The notes under the pieces are model-generated. The model was given only the letters and a program-made list of their open reading frames with translations, ran no database searches and was not told where the DNA came from. This document shows positions 31,411 to 48,080 of a DNA stretch of 64,000 nucleotides, one piece after another (positions within the stretch are counted from its first letter, which is position 1; every line of letters begins with the position of its first letter). Location of the stretch: assembly GCA_022925895.1 (NCBI GenBank), contig JAKSYS010000131.1, positions 46,774 through 110,773 on the forward strand, given 5' to 3'. This DNA comes from Fragilaria crotonensis. Lineage: Eukaryota; Bacillariophyta; Fragilariophyceae; Fragilariales; Fragilariaceae. The translations under genes were made by a program, and so were the position numbers.

Positions 31411-31763
31411 AGCTCAAAAACACAAACCCGAGACTGTTACTATCTTGTCACAACTGCTCCTTCATCAGATCTGAGCACCTCACGGAGAAGATGTTCATGA
31501 TCAAGACTCGAGACACTCCGGTGTGCTGCACTTGACTTCGCCGACCGATGCTGCGATAAAGGTACACGTACAAGTCTAGTATGGCCGAAAATATAAAAAA
31601 CAGAAAGAGGCATGCAAGCAGATTATGTGCATTCATACAGTACTCGAGTACCAAGTAGTTCATCTTACTATTAATATTTGTATATACTGTATATATGATT
31701 TTCGTCGCGAGGATTTGTGTGATGTGAGAGAAGTGAAACCCTTGATACGGAGTACAAGCCTAA
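31411..31763. other. spacer 5' of the DNA transposon
   Basis: Matches 48080-48260 up to about 31640 and then diverges. It contains gtactcgagtacc at about 31640 and AT-rich sequence. No gene seen. Confidence 0.5.
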
Positions 31764-31771
31764 CCCCAGTA

Positions 31772-31827
31772 TTTTTTGTCGCATGGCATGCGACAAAAAA
31801 TCTTCCGAGTTTTGGGATATCCCAAAA
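31772..31827. repeat. two adjacent perfect palindromes at the transposon left end
   Basis: 31772-31800 is a 14-bp-arm inverted repeat with a one-base centre (ttttttgtcgcatg and its complement). 31810-31827 is the uninterrupted palindrome ttttgggatatcccaaaa. A related 10-bp-arm repeat with an 11-base spacer lies at 35501-35531 near the right end. They may be transposase-binding sites or hairpin-forming ends. Confidence 0.85.
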
Positions 31828-32131
31828 TTTTTGTCCTACGAAAAAGCTAGCGAGAAATTTCGTGCGACAAATGTTTTTCAGCGATTCTCATTGATGCCTA
31901 CAATTGAAGTTCGCTTGTTGCCCCTTGCATGCATTCCAGAGACCAGTTGTGCACCCTGTCTCCGTACTAAAAGTTCAGGTCTTTGTACACTGTAGGTTCT
32001 ACATACGGTAGGTATTATCTGTAGACCCTCATACAGAGGTGTATGTGCACTTTGAAGTGCGCAGCAACAACAAGCACCCGCCATTGCATCAACAAGAAAT
32101 CAATTCTTGCTCTTGAAAGGTCCCCTCAATC

Positions 32132-35100
32132 ATGTCAAACAACAGTGATGGTGGCGATGAAAGTGACTCTGATCTTGAGGATATGATGTATTTGATGTCT
32201 GGTTCAGCTGGTGATGCTGATTTGGATGATGCAGACGACGATGAGGAACCGATAGGAGAATGGAACTTCATCAGAGAGTTTGAGACAACTATCGAGATCG
32301 ATGTAGTAGACCGACATCTGCTGGAGGTGGCCCGCCAGGAGGTACCAATTGTCCTTAACCGTCTGAAAGCCAAGATGTTTGGCGGAAGAGTCAGGAATCT
32401 GTGGAAGGTTGAACCTGCTCGTTTTTTAGAGGCGTGGATGGATGCTAATTTGCTGGGACATATCAAGCAATTCATCAATAAGAACTTATCTCGGGATTCC
32501 GTCTCGAATTCAGAGATACTTGCCTTCATTCGGATTGAATTGATGCTCTCATTCTACCGAGTCTCCCCTTCGTTGTACTTTGATATGGATGAGCGAGCAA
32601 ATTTTCCATCTGCAGGACAGGGTATGGACCTCATTCGATACCGAGAGATCTTGAAGGCTTTGTCACGGTCTGGCACTTCAAGGCAGGAATCAGCATCAAC
32701 TTGGACACCTCCTATGCAGCATGACAGAGAAATGGCTGCAGCAATGGAAATTGTTCGTTCAACTGGGTCAGAGCTAGCTTTTGTTGCAGGAGTGACCCAA
32801 GTTGGTTTGGACGATGACTTACTTCGGATGCGATCAAAGAGGGTCATCAATCACGGGTTCTCACAGATCAACAACCCCTGCAAAGGGTTAGGAGTCATTC
32901 ATCATGGAGCAGTGTCAGTGGTCACTGGTTTGTATATTGGCGGGCATGTTGCAGCTCGGGGTGAGTCAACTTTGGACTGTGTGAAAATATTGCAGAGGAG
33001 TATGACAGGCGTATCATCCGAATCGCAAATCCGACTCGATGGCAACACTTTCTTCTGGGATCGAGGATATGGTGGAGTGAATGGAGAAGTCAACCAGTGG
33101 AGTGTGTCGGTTGGAGCTATGCTTTTGGGAACAACAAAGAGAATGCGATCGTTCCCTTTACATACGACCAACATCCGGGCCCAGACCGGCGGCTTATTGC
33201 AGAGAAGGTGCATCAGCCCATTATTGGGCTACGAAGGCGATAAGAAATGGTTCAAGAGTTACACATCAATATGCACTGGCCAGTCGAAACGGCTTAGGCC
33301 GGGTGGTTCTCATGCAAACGACTGATGACAGGTACGGACCGGGAAAGTTTACCCTTGTAACCCGACAACGAGGATGCGATGTCGCTCCAGAACCTACAGA
33401 TGATGAAGTAATTAGACTGTTTGAAGCAGACCATGTTGAGCAGCTGACAGATACGCAACGATCTCCAGAATGGTTCAACCAGCGTCAGTTTCAATTACTG
33501 GAACCACTGCTCTTGGACTATGGAAGCGCTACGCGCATCGGGCTCGTTACACCGCCAGTGTCACCAGTGGAGGGGAGCTGTCGCACAATATCCTGTCAAG
33601 CTGTAAAATACTTGGGTTGAAATGCTCAAATGAACTCATTCCAAATGAGGCTGTGGCTGATCGGATTTACAGTAGACATGAGTAAGTGGGGTTGTCGGTT
33701 GCACACCTAAAGATATTTGCTGAGCGAAATCTCTGCTGGTGACAGGGAGCAAAACAACTCTCATTGATAGAGTGCTTTCATGGGGAGGATCTGATCAGTC
33801 AAACGGGGAATGCCCAATACTGGAACTTCTTCTGGAGATGTGGTTTATGTTGCCCTTTGCCTCATCAACCTCAATGCGTGAAGGTACCCTCAATGAGTCA
33901 AATGTATTGTCAAGACTTCCCTGTTTCTTGATCAGGAAGCGATTTCGTTGTGACACATATCAGGGAATATGGCTTGTTATGTGCAAAAGGTATGTTCTAT
34001 GCAGCATTCTCGCCCGATGCGATTGCAGTTGCGGAGAACGAAAACATATTTGGCGAGGACGAAGGTATTCCTTTCATAGTGGAGATCAAGAGCAAATGCA
34101 CCCCGCAACAGTAATGAAAGAGACCGCATTGGCCAGGACCTACGGCACGTGTCCAACGATTTATGTTGTTATGACGGATCCTCCTACGAACGACGACTTT
34201 AAACGAATGATTCCTGAGCCCGAGTACAGGTGTCAATTGTTGCATGGCATTGCATGTGGCAATCTGCGACATGCTTTCTATGTGGTGGCATCATTGCACA
34301 AGATAATTCGTGTTGTTCATGTGAATGTTGATGAGCAGGTGGTTGAGCAATATCGATGTGCATTGCAAGAGGTACATGATCGTGAGCTTTCCTGGGTACT
34401 TCATGGTCGTTTACCGTGTTTGGGAGGAATGAAGCTGAGGCATGCAGTTGACGAGTACACTGTTCAAAATACGTTGGAACTATGGAGAGCAATCTATAAT
34501 CTTGTGAAGACCCGGGCAGACCGTTGCCAGCAGGACGCATGTTGATTCCGACCATTGTAGCAATGTGGAATCGAAGCAAAGGTCCTGTTGATGTGTTCTC
34601 GCGGTACATGAAGAACTGCCATGCTCGGCATGCACAGCTCTCACCATTGGCACACATATGGCTTCGTCTTCTGATGTCTCGAGTTTATAATGCATATCAG
34701 AGCTACATTCTCAGTCGCTCTGTTGCATTCCTGCTAAGTGATGGGTGCAATTCGTATGCTGCATTCCAGGCACACCGAAAGCTGTATGGGTCTTTTTCAA
34801 AGTTCTGCAGTTCTCTTGCTAAAGACCTAACACTCGAGGTTTCAGGTGATGACAGCAGCGACAGTGAAGGAGGAGATGATGGTGGTATCAGCATCCAGCA
34901 GACGGGAGAAGGAAGTGTTCTGAACACAAGCGGAAGGTCTTTTACATACAACAAGCGCGAGCTGTACTTCACAAGTCGCGAGATGATTCAAAGACGATTG
35001 GACCAGTCATTGCCACATGTTCTATGCAAAGTGGAATCGAAACCAACAAGCTGTGTCTGGTGCTGCAGAAAGAGGCATGATCAACCAGATCCGAAGCACT

Positions 35101-35312
35101 GCAGGCATGGTCGTACGACGAAGTTCATGTGTCCTGTGTGCATGGTCAGCCTTTGTCGTGTCAAGCGTTTCAACGGCATGAGCTGCCATGAGTTATTTCA
35201 TACAAGCAGATCATTGGTAGACTATTGCACAGCCGAGATGGATGCTGTGGTTCACGTCATCCGCATCAAACCGACCACCACCTCCGAATCGAGGTTCAGT
35301 GAATCCAGATGA
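32132..35312 (+). pseudogene. piggyBac-like transposase with embedded YqaJ-like exonuclease domain
   Basis: ATG 32132 opens a 397-codon frame with an acidic N-terminus. A first catalytic-Asp region is QVGLDDDLLRMRSK with NPCKGLGV (near 32806-32890), and a second is LDGNTFFWDRGYGG followed by LLGTTKRMRSFP (near 33031-33160). A strand like piggyBac's follows in another frame (GRVVLMQTT near 33300). Next comes a lambda-exonuclease-like segment: SPEWFNQRQF (33464), ITGTTALGLWKRY (33491), AFSPDAIAV (34006), PFIVEIKSK (34070) and YRCQLLHG (34226). Third-Asp text is WNRSKGPVDVFSRYMKN (34566), and a zinc-finger end is CVWCC...CPVCMVSLC...H (35056-35190), as in piggyBac proteins. Frame changes near 33200, 33490, 33930, 34105 and 34515, plus an intron, separate the pieces, so this copy may be dead or poorly assembled. 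Confidence 0.75.
33682..33749 (+). other. probable 68-bp spliceosomal intron
   Basis: Begins GTAAGT and ends AG (gacagggag). Removing it joins frame 2 (ending ADRIYSRH) to frame 1 (KTTLIDRVLSWGG) in phase 2 without another shift. The size suits diatom introns. An alternative acceptor AG at 33744-33745 would not keep the frame. Confidence 0.6.
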
Positions 35313-35744
35313 TTCTTCTCAGGAAAACGAGGAGCCACCTGCTCCTCGCAGAGTTCGATCTCGGATTACTCCTGTGGTAACACGAAGACTTCGGAGATCG
35401 CTGAGACCAAGGAGAGCTCCAATACGGCGGTTTTAAGACTGAACATCATTGTGTCAATGCGAGTCTCCTCGTGTTAATTTTTCAATAGTCGTATTTTTTT
35501 TTGTCGCATGCTAGCTTTTTTCATGCGACAAACTCGTGCGAACTCCGAAAAAAAATTGATGAAGTTTGCAATGTTGTAACTTTGCGAGCATCATGATTAG
35601 GAAGTTATCCTCACAGATGTAGGAAGAAGGTTAAAAGCATTACAGATCGCACTTTTCAGAATCAAATGGTTGTGGGTTGTTCCTCCGTTATTGGGTTTCA
35701 ACATTTTGTCGTCTTTTTTGTCGCACGGAATTTTCGCACTGGGG

Positions 35745-36674
35745 ATAAACTAGATAGTGAGACGACAAAAAATAAACACCACCGAAAAATCGTCCTTTTG
35801 GCTTCAAAATGTACCAAACGATTCAGAATCTTCCCGTCCACTTGCGCAATCAAAAAAAATTGGAAAAGGAGTGTTATTGATGAAGTTATGTTTAATCGAC
35901 TTTTTCGGAACCCGGAGGAACTAAACTAAATAACGAGACACTCGTATAATTTACAGTACATTCTACACGACTTGAAAGTGGAGAAACTTGACAACAATGC
36001 AAGCTATCGTACTTTGTTGCAAATTGATACAGCAAGGTGGTATTTTTGAGTCCAAACACTTGAAACATGATAAGAACTATAATTTTAATAGGCCTGAACA
36101 TTCAAATGGGTGTGGGAGATGGAGTTCATCATCGTTTGAGCTCATTCATTGGTGAGAGCCATCACGATGGAGTTTGTCGTCTGACCCGCGAAAAATTTAG
36201 CAGAACAAAATGTTTGGGGAGAAAAATTTAGCAGCACAAACGTTCGTAGAAGAAAAATATTTTCGTCGCCATCACAGCATCAACCTCAAACCATCATCAC
36301 AACAAAAATGGTAGGCTTTGAGCACCCTTTTTGCAATGAATGACATACCATTATCACTGCATCTTTATTGATGCACCTCTTTGAAGCCCTTCATGTTTTT
36401 CAGTGATGCATTGCAAATTGGTTGCAAGCATTGCTTCCTTTGCATTGACATGTGAGTATGAAAGAGCAATTGATGTCAGGAAACTTTATGAGTCGCGAAA
36501 AAAATTACCGCGAACTTCGGTCGGAGATAACTCCTGAGCCAAGGTAACTATGCCAAAAGTAGCTACAGAACCTAACCACCAAATAACGTTAAGAACAACT
36601 ATTAAACGCACGAAAATCGAAGTCAAAATGCGTCAATACGGTGTTTGAGACGTGTAAAGAAAGTGTCTCACTAA
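35745..36674. other. spacer between transposon and MITE
   Basis: AT-rich. A direct repeat of gaaaaatttagcag occurs at about 36189 and 36220. No gene with support was found; short frames have no domain. Confidence 0.5.
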
Positions 36675-45956: not shown

Positions 45957-48080
45957 TCAGTCGCGGTTCAGACCCACATTATACCAGCGTCCAAACATCG
46001 ACGTTCGATACTGAACGCCAGCAGAAAAGGCACGTGCGAGTTCAGTGAATGCTGGTGGTCGATTTCTGCACTCAGCCCTGTCAACAAATGTTGAATTCCC
46101 GTTCTCTCGACGTTGCTTTTGCCTTCTCTCTGTCATTGACACTTGGTGATTTGTTCTTTTGCCTTTGCTCTATCGAACTGGTGGTTCAGTGGTGCTTGAT
46201 GATCAAGGTCAGCTGAAGGAGCCGTAAATGTGTGTCAATTCATGACTCTGATCTCTGCTTGCGCTCACTTCTTGTATCATTCAATCACCGGCACCGTTGG
46301 ATTGTCGGCGTACCCTTGATGCGACCGATCAGGGCAGCCCTGGGGTTGTGTATTCGAGCTGGTTGACGGACCCACACATGATCCTGGAGTCAGTTTTTCT
46401 TTATCACAGTGACCGGTCACGATTGCTTTCGCGTTTGCCTTTTGTGCGCTTCCTCGCTTGCCTGTTCATCTGGTACTGGAGGCATGCCGGACACTTTGTG
46501 GTACTCGACAATCAACCAATCTTGACGTTCGACGGAAGGGTTCCGTCCTTGGCCATGCTCCTCTGGGTTCTTGACACAGGGACACGCCCAAGAAGGCGGA
46601 AGTGCCAGATCATCATTCCGGTCCTTGCATCGAGGGTGCCCTTCTTGATGGCTTCTGCTGCATTGGTGTAGTCAGTGGTCTCGCCCGCTTGTGTGTGCAA
46701 GTGACGTGTTTGCTCGTTCTATCAAAAGTATTATTCAATTTTCTGATGCTTTTTTGAAATGGCTAAAGCAATGAAGCCATACAATGCGTGAAACAAATGA
46801 GGGAAGATTTGTATAGTAGTCATGGGTGACACCTTTAATAATCACATACGCAACGAACAAAACTGATTCGGCACGCAAGTTATGTATCACTTCAATCACT
46901 AGCTATGTTGTATAGAAGGCATGCTAAAAATAAGCCCAAAAACGGCACCAGGGCATGAAGTAATAAGAAATCACTCCGGCGCAGTCAGCAGAACATGCCA
47001 CATAGCACCAACTGCATCTCCTAGCCACTGGGCATTCTTGTTGTTCATTAAAATGTTGTGAGCTATTACAACCACGACAGCAGCCCATTTTTCTGCCAAA
47101 AGCGAGAATAGTACCTTCTCATTCTTTTGGAAAAACGCATTGCTCCAGTCTGAATACTTGAATGCGATACCATTCCTTCATGGAATGCAACTGTCAACTC
47201 CCATCCACTCCGAGATGGGGCTAAAGACTGATTCGCAGGTCAAGGTTTGGGATCAAAGAACCATGCTGTGTGTTTCCATTTGTTGCTGAAAGCCACTTGG
47301 ACACTGACCAAGAACTCCTGGATAGTACATGTAGCTGACTTGATTGCCATCATTATTGAACGTGGCATTGCTTGTCTTCCTCACGACACCATCCATCACA
47401 ATGATACGACGACGACGACGACGTTGTGCCCATTTCTCCGACATCAATGAATGAATGTCCATGTTCAGACCAGCAAACAGCACAACACAATTCCATTTGA
47501 ATCATCAAGTTTGGATTGTAGTTGTGTGCAGGAATGACGTGATTGGTTTCCCCCCTTGCGCAAGCAAACCAACAAGGAAGGAGATCAAACACGAACCCTT
47601 TGTCAGCAAGAAGTAAATGACGGACATCTGCTCTGATGGGCTGACTTCATACGTCATGACTGGATTGGAACTTGCACTCGAGAAGCCTGTTTTTCTTTAT
47701 GATCACCGATGACCGATGAGATGTCAGACGACGAAGACGAATCAATATTGCATAGTAGTAGTACTCAGAACACAATGAAACCGATTGTCATTGTCGACTC
47801 GACGAATTGCGTCCCCCAGTATATGCCAGGGTATCACACCATGGATTGTTCGCCGCATCAGCACAACCAGCGTATAATTCTTGTTCGTCATTGTGCGTCG
47901 ACCAAATTTGTGTTCAGTTTCAATCGCATGAGCCTGTCCATTACAGAAGCAGGGACCGTGAACACCAATGGAATCCGCATGATTTGGGACCCAGTCAAGA
48001 GGAGAAAGAAAACTCAAAAACACAATCGCGAGACTGTAACTATCTTGTCCCAACTGCTCTTTCATCAGGTCTGAGTACGA
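45957..48080 (-). pseudogene. family U gene, broken copy at 46-48 kb
   Basis: Collinear with 29349-31410. Readable blocks include AIETEHKFGRRTM near 47930, YNPNLMIQMELCC near 47510, MDIHSLMSEKWAQRR near 47460, AIKKGTLDARTGMMIWH near 46650-46600 and FVDRAECRNRPPAF near 46090. The frames are discontinuous and differ in position from the other copy. Products and role unknown; hydrophobic parts near 46930 suggest a membrane protein. Confidence 0.5.

Follow-up and report, generated by a model that had tools for sequence, protein, structure and literature searches.

Can a transposase carry a second DNA-cutting enzyme inside its own catalytic region? The question is raised by a locus in the diatom Fragilaria crotonensis (GenBank assembly GCA_022925895.1, 62.1 Mb), on contig JAKSYS010000131.1 (C39 below), of which we analysed the 64,000 nucleotides from position 46,774 to 110,773. 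This whole stretch is called the window, and coordinates count from its first letter. An earlier note, made from the letters alone, had placed a YqaJ/lambda-exonuclease-like domain of the PD-(D/E)XK type between the second and third catalytic Asp (D2 and D3; the first is D1) of a piggyBac-like transposase, and all the peptides that it quoted can be read from the + strand in the sequence it gave. We find that the locus holds a degraded member of a DNA transposon family of this genome, and we regard it as highly probable that the family encodes a YqaJ-type nuclease with a SAP domain inside a piggyBac-like catalytic region, as one chain.

The relatives that bear on the single chain were found by searching the genome with the two halves of the window gene; 20 regions were fetched, and the family comprises group A, to which the window copy belongs, group B (approximately 68-70% DNA identity to A) and group C. 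Two of the 20 regions, L047 and L048 of group C, are open in one frame from D1 through the nuclease to D3 and the Cys/His-rich end (1041 amino acids in L047 and 999 in L048; 66% identity). The order in L047 is D1, D2, nuclease motifs, SAP domain, D3 and Cys/His end. Both have a predicted GT...AG intron and an upstream exon that codes for an acidic start; this exon 1 is open in L047 and split across two frames in L048. The embedded domain proposed earlier is thus borne out by two homologues that have all these parts in a single open frame, and their open frames rule out two separate genes. L047, which lies on contig C52, has terminal repeats CCCCAGACA/TGTCTGGGG and an exact duplication of CTAA on both sides. 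It is therefore a transposon, and the possibility that it is a host gene is ruled out by these ends and the target duplication.

The genome searches scored the best candidates only, and our counts of places, tallied by coordinates, refer to the matches listed. Among the 29 listed nuclease-region places, transposase matches lie on both sides in 25, on one side in 1 and on neither side in 3. By coordinates, the family searches of this genome gave no copy that has D2 and D3 yet lacks the insert. The copies on C83 and C753 do lack it, but they also lack the D2- and D3-bearing parts and look like internal deletions. The architecture does not depend on fold evidence alone, and what the analysis demonstrates comprises the gene anatomy, the single frame in two relatives, the conserved motif residues, the ends, the 4-bp duplications and a low ratio of nonsynonymous to synonymous substitution (dN/dS).

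The window copy itself occupies 31764-35744 (3,981 bp), beginning CCCCAGT and ending ACTGGGG. Its open reading frames extend from a first ATG at 32132 to a last frame that ends at 35312: D1 and D2 lie in a 402 amino acid frame (32117-33325), D3 and the Cys/His end in a separate frame of 270 amino acids, and the nuclease motifs between them are spread over three frames with one in-frame stop. Because its parts fall in several frames and are interrupted by a stop, the copy is decayed. It is not a chance arrangement, since five further fetched copies from the same genome are 98.4-99.3% identical to it over approximately 4.0 kb; these copies end at identical termini inside differing flanks. The features of the window copy are as follows.

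31760..31763: left 4-bp flank CTAA, read from the sequence; the right flank ATAA has one mismatch to it
31764..31801, + strand: left terminus CCCCAGT, then the inverted repeat ATTTTTTGTCGCATG/CATGCGACAAAAAAT at 31771-31801
32132..32413, + strand: acidic N-terminal region from the first ATG, in the 402 amino acid frame; acidic also in exon 1 of L047 and L048
32414..32683, + strand: region matching DDE_Tnp_1_7 (profile positions 2-96), upstream of D1; E 3.9e-5 and 6.4e-6
32810..32812, + strand: D1 codon (VGLDDDLLRMRS), for the putative first catalytic Asp, which all 9 covering rows of alignment A6 share
33059..33061, + strand: D2 codon (FFWDRGYGG), for the putative second catalytic Asp, likewise shared by all 9 covering A6 rows
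33462..33523, + strand: first nuclease motifs SPEWFNQRQF and ITGTTALGLW, in two frames; W, R and T invariant in family rows and phage YqaJ
33715..33783, + strand: SAP stretch (AKSLLVTGSKTTLIDRVLSW), nested in the nuclease domain, with a stop just before it; L047 and L048 match PF02037
33874..33897, + strand: GxxxE motif (MREGTLNE); G in 12 of 12 and E in 11 of 11 rows, invariant in phage YqaJ
34007..34018, + strand: FSPD motif with the candidate catalytic Asp codon at 34016-34018; D in 14 of 14 rows
34082..34090, + strand: ExK motif in VEIKSK; E and K each in 13 of 14 rows
34222..34245, + strand: EYRCQLLH motif with the Gln codon at 34234-34236; Q in 11 of 11 rows
34566..34592, + strand: WNRSKGPVD block with the D3 codon at 34590-34592; D and G kept in all 10 covering rows, W and N in all 9
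35049..35205, + strand: C-terminal Cys/His-rich region, approximate limits; its relative L056 matches zf-Tnp_2
35711..35744, + strand: right terminus ...TTTTTTGTCGCAC...ACTGGGG, the common end of the copies
35745..35748: right 4-bp flank ATAA, read from the sequence

The description of the locus given earlier had the order of nuclease and transposase right; the SAP domain, the element ends, the target duplications and the broken state of the copy went unmentioned in it. Both ends of the window element (31771-31801 and 35711-35733) have subterminal repeats of the TTTTTTGTCGCATG type, and related TTTTTGTCC or TTTTTTGTCGC motifs lie close to the termini of copies in groups B and C; all of these are candidate protein binding sites.

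Is the inserted domain a nuclease of the lambda-exonuclease type? The family has the motif order of the lambda-exonuclease-like PD-(D/E)XK superfamily, D...ExK...Q, and eleven nuclease motif positions are conserved, two substitutions excepted. In profile-profile comparison with an alignment of phage lambda-exonuclease/YqaJ proteins, the family reaches E values between 1.1e-6 and 2.5e-6 with a probability of 89-91%; the 92 columns compared leave out the first motif. As controls, 100 column shuffles reach 2.1% at most, and the transposase parts do not match this alignment. PHROG 434 is matched at E 9e-4 at best by relatives and at E 0.26 by the window's own frames. A hidden Markov model (HMM) of phage YqaJ proteins gives the window frames 3.4 bits or less and L047, L048 and L050 8-9 bits, with two motifs in order in 2 of these three. 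A point against the identification is that the Pfam YqaJ model (PF09588) has no match, with 0 genome-wide and 0 among the 20 members and the window pieces at E<=10; the domain would belong near PF09588 only as a remote relative, and not as a member. The expectation of a significant YqaJ profile score in the earlier note thus held for the comparison of profiles and failed for single-sequence Pfam searches. Because the window scores poorly singly, the identification rests on the profile-profile, fold and motif evidence of the relatives.

As to the fold, a full-length AlphaFold model has moderate confidence in the nuclease core only. The weak nuclease model may match viral YqaJ folds, and its nearest named folds appear to include lambda-type exonucleases, and a Foldseek search with the full-length model places lambda exonuclease at rank 2 with a probability of 0.80 but E 0.15. 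An NCBIfam search gave nothing useful, a tblastn search of phages with the nuclease region gave 5 records at E 4 only, a scan of viral contigs gave no relative, and PDB sequence searches with the whole protein and the family returned SAP domains and chance matches. As a side observation, lambda exo occurs at 100% identity in assemblies labelled Shewanella, Leeuwenhoekiella, Oceanobacillus and Streptomyces, among others (L068-L074), three of them on 48.4-48.5 kb contigs, which is probably lambda DNA contamination of public genomes.

The SAP domain (PF02037, cut-off 23.9 bits) is matched by L047 (E 5.2e-7, 29.6 bits) and L048 (E 1.3e-5, 25.2 bits); L050 (22.4 bits) and L049 (23.1 bits) fall slightly below the cut-off, and of the 20 members of A2, 7 have a match with E<=10. 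It is flanked by the ITGT and REGTLNE helices of the nuclease, and the layout is therefore nested, SAP in nuclease in transposase.

We are interested in how closely the surrounding transposase is related to piggyBac. DDE_Tnp_1_7 (PF13843, cut-off 22.4 bits) scores above its cut-off in the window (26.1 bits, E 6.4e-6, over profile positions 2-95), L053 (24.6), L059 (28.3) and L060 (27.9); these matches are confined to profile positions 1-97 of 349, ahead of D1, and L047 stays under the cut-off with 11.4 bits. At the other end, zf-Tnp_2 (PF13842) is matched by 4 of the 20 members at E<=10; only L056 is above the cut-off (24.2 vs 24.0 bits), L050 (20.4) and L058 (15.7) are below it, and the window, L047, L048 and L054 have no match. 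D1 and D2 were assigned by motif. In the D3 block, W-N-R-G-K-G-P-I-D, the residues are spaced as Y439, N440, G444 and D447 are in T. ni piggyBac (PMC7351741).

For comparison, 14 canonical piggyBac copies of the same genome were arranged in two alignments (8 and 7 rows) and compared by hhalign. The D1-D2 and D3 catalytic blocks gave no significant profile-profile match to them (N parts at a probability of 0.1-2.8%, the D3 block at 0.2-0.5%). Some of the weak alignments coincide with the D2 and D3 blocks, and the whole C part aligns with one of the two canonical groups at the finger (26.8%, E 6.9e-4). Because the catalytic blocks show no significant match, the kinship to piggyBac appears distant. 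The earlier wording, a piggyBac-like transposase, suggested a closer kinship than this. PDB sequence searches with the N or C part gave nothing relevant. The distance from D2 to D3 is 506 residues in L047 versus 101 in T. ni piggyBac (D346 to D447), so the insertion is approximately 400 residues longer; the T. ni protein has a three-stranded insertion domain at residues 372-433 (PMC7351741). The exact start of the insert after the piggyBac strand is our reading of the motifs. Conventional insert-free piggyBac transposases are abundant in this genome, with 84 PF13843 matches, a few of which are of the nuclease-bearing family; the 14 canonical copies read (L001-L008, L097-L102) have a third-Asp block of the YYxTCxxIDxHNR or the HxxxRHxVDDHNN type.

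The termini of the family are 5'-CC, and piggyBac transposons likewise have 5'-CC ends. Exact 4-bp target duplications are found in 15 of the 24 copies readable at both ends (TTAA 6, TTAG 2, TTAT 2, ATAA 2, CTAG 2 and CTAA 1, by eye), and all 15 are NTAN, with TA in the middle; they keep the length and core of TTAA without being strictly TTAA. Inexact pairs within the 24 are those of the window, L054, L061, L049, L050, L063, L057, C19 and C775, and C289, whose flanks are identical to those of C775, is counted with it once. Copies with one end lost, outside the locus or unreadable stand outside the count (L048, L055, L065, C537, C595), as do C327, C164, C504, C538, C198, C100, C715, C67, C87 and C261. 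As the script sought ACTGGGG only, the duplications of C614, C295 and C268, where the right end is ACCGGGG, were scored by eye. In T. ni piggyBac, N440 contacts A-2, and Y439 together with insertion-domain residues holds T-3 (PMC7351741). We infer that the conserved W-N of the family may correspond to these contacts, and thereby to the retained T and A between variable outer bases.

Several other elements carry the A-family ends. Those of approximately 1.3-1.4 kb, as judged from the spacing of end matches, lie on C537, C614, C295, C595, C19, C268, C775, C289, C265, C877 and other contigs, and are probably non-autonomous derivatives moved in trans. C775:78938 and C289:51905 hold the same element with identical 15-base flanks, so that the region is either duplicated or present as two haplotypes that the assembly did not merge. 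At C261:36999-49721, approximately 8.7 kb of other DNA lies between the nuclease and D3 parts of an A-family copy, probably a nested insertion.

Have the two enzymes been maintained together? Among L047, L048 and L050, the nuclease core has a dN/dS of 0.083-0.132, the N core one of 0.055-0.058 and the C part one of 0.086-0.128, wherever the ratio is defined; these values are rough, with synonymous sites saturated or nearly so (dS 1.8-4.7) and many cells without a value. In close pairs that involve L048, the larger parts have values of 0.09-0.35. Conservation is lower in the SAP part (51-56% identity), and its dN/dS of 2.3 in L048/L056 comes from 43 codons only, too few to weigh.

These observations bear on two alternatives to the architecture. 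The several frames and the stop of the window copy are what one would see if a YqaJ-like gene had inserted into a dead transposase, or the two had been juxtaposed by chance. With L047 and L048 in single open frames, transposase flanks at 25 of the 29 listed places, similar dN/dS in both parts and, by coordinates, no insert-free copy seen that has D2 and D3, we consider such an origin extraordinarily improbable. The transposase might also be of a separate DDE superfamily that merely has similar ends: the unmatched catalytic blocks and the NTAN duplications, which are not strictly TTAA, both weigh against piggyBac kinship. Such a separate origin is nevertheless improbable in our view, given the DDE_Tnp_1_7 scores above cut-off in the window and three relatives, that of zf-Tnp_2 in L056, the piggyBac-type spacing of the D3 block and ends of 5'-CC, as opposed to the 5'-RR of Kolobok (PMC9587614).

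What might the inserted nuclease do? DDE transposases differ in how they cut the second strand, Tn7 and Tc1/mariner using water and piggyBac and hAT passing through a hairpin (PMC6900584), and the nuclease would be well placed for either a second-strand cut or hairpin opening because it lies at the site of the insertion domain. The DDD site would then make the transferred-strand cut and the joining. The SAP domain would keep the nuclease at the end of the transposon or on the flank, which is where the insertion domain of other DDE transposases is placed, and the nuclease would cut the other strand or open the end hairpin. The result would be a one-chain analogue of the division of labour between the two nucleases of Tn7, TnsA and TnsB. 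We give this activity of the nuclease slightly less than an even chance. Taken as a whole, a decayed piggyBac-like element with a nested nuclease and SAP domain, plus the second-strand or hairpin role, is the best explanation that we have, and is somewhat probable. A bolder form of it, which we hold to be rather doubtful, is that this eukaryotic transposase unites both cutting enzymes in one chain, the nuclease having taken over the non-transferred-strand cut or hairpin opening and so freed the element from strict TTAA hairpin chemistry; it would be consistent with exact duplications in which the central TA, made up of T-3 and A-2, is all that stays constant.

Two other roles have to be weighed against that of a second cutter. 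The DDD site might cut the strands while the nuclease acts on the donor break or its flanks, by lambda-like 5'-3' resection that leads to repair from the sister copy and a rise in copy number. The lambda-type exonucleases among the nearest named folds of the weak model would fit this role, and the nucleases of ISL2EU (PMC4482050) and KolobokE (PMC9587614) sit outside the transposase core. Here, however, the domain lies inside the catalytic region, at the site of end-touching insertion domains, a place that repair does not need, and we think resection rather unlikely. The insert may instead have replaced the piggyBac insertion domain structurally, positioning DNA without cutting it; in Hermes, Tn5 and piggyBac the insertion domain contributes to shaping or gripping the DNA (PMC6900584, PMC7351741). 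Against a purely structural insert stand the Asp (14/14 rows), Glu (13/14), Lys (13/14) and Gln (11/11) retained across three subfamilies, and it seems to us quite unlikely.

Apart from the transposon, silicon-transporter genes are present in this genome at E 4e-193, in keeping with a diatom host. One open frame of 1456 amino acids (C97:29749-33762) holds three silicon-transporter domains, and a frame of 1008 amino acids (C771:21664-24330) holds two.

How does the nuclease-bearing family compare with systems already known? In the P element transposase, a GTP-binding domain is inserted in the RNase H catalytic fold; the enzyme-like insertion is shared, whereas the insert is of the GTPase type and not a nuclease, and the superfamily is unrelated. 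In Tn7, the PD-(D/E)XK nuclease TnsA works beside the DDE transposase TnsB at the same ends, as two bacterial proteins, whereas here a single chain has the nuclease embedded in its DDE region. The DDE insertion site is known for DNA-shaping domains, and a second nuclease there, if real, would be a new cut-and-paste design. Our search of the open literature, with subscription papers and Repbase lying outside it, turned up no description of a piggyBac-like transposase whose catalytic region contains a nuclease. The family would be a natural test of second-strand cutting and of the parts of piggyBac that set TTAA specificity.

With T. ni piggyBac the family shares the DDE_Tnp_1_7 start, the zf-Tnp_2 end, the DDD order, the aromatic-N-x3-G-x-h-D block and a 4-bp duplication of the TTAA type; it differs in having the nuclease and SAP domain where the three-stranded insertion domain sits, and in its NTAN duplications (PMC7351741). 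Its nuclease has the motif order of YqaJ, lambda exonuclease and LHK-Exo (EW..R..T, GxxxE, SPD, ExK, Q), and on the weak model its fold may be similar. Unlike them it has no scoring PF09588 match, contains a SAP insertion and is embedded in a transposase. ISL2EU, of the PHIS superfamily, is likewise a DDE transposon that encodes a YqaJ exonuclease, but it does so as a separate open reading frame in most autonomous candidates, beside a transposase of another family, and the role of that YqaJ is stated to be unknown (PMC4482050); the one frame of L047 and L048 rules out identity with it. KolobokE also combines a DDD/E transposase with a PD-(D/E)XK lambda-exonuclease-like nuclease in one transposon and makes TTAA-type duplications, but it belongs to the Kolobok superfamily, with 5'-RR ends, a C/DxxH signature and the nuclease downstream of the transposase domain (PMC9587614). 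Termini of 5'-CC rather than 5'-RR rule out Kolobok or KolobokE identity. ISL2EU, KolobokE and the nuclease-bearing family would form a pattern, in which different DDE transposons each come with a lambda-exonuclease-like protein.
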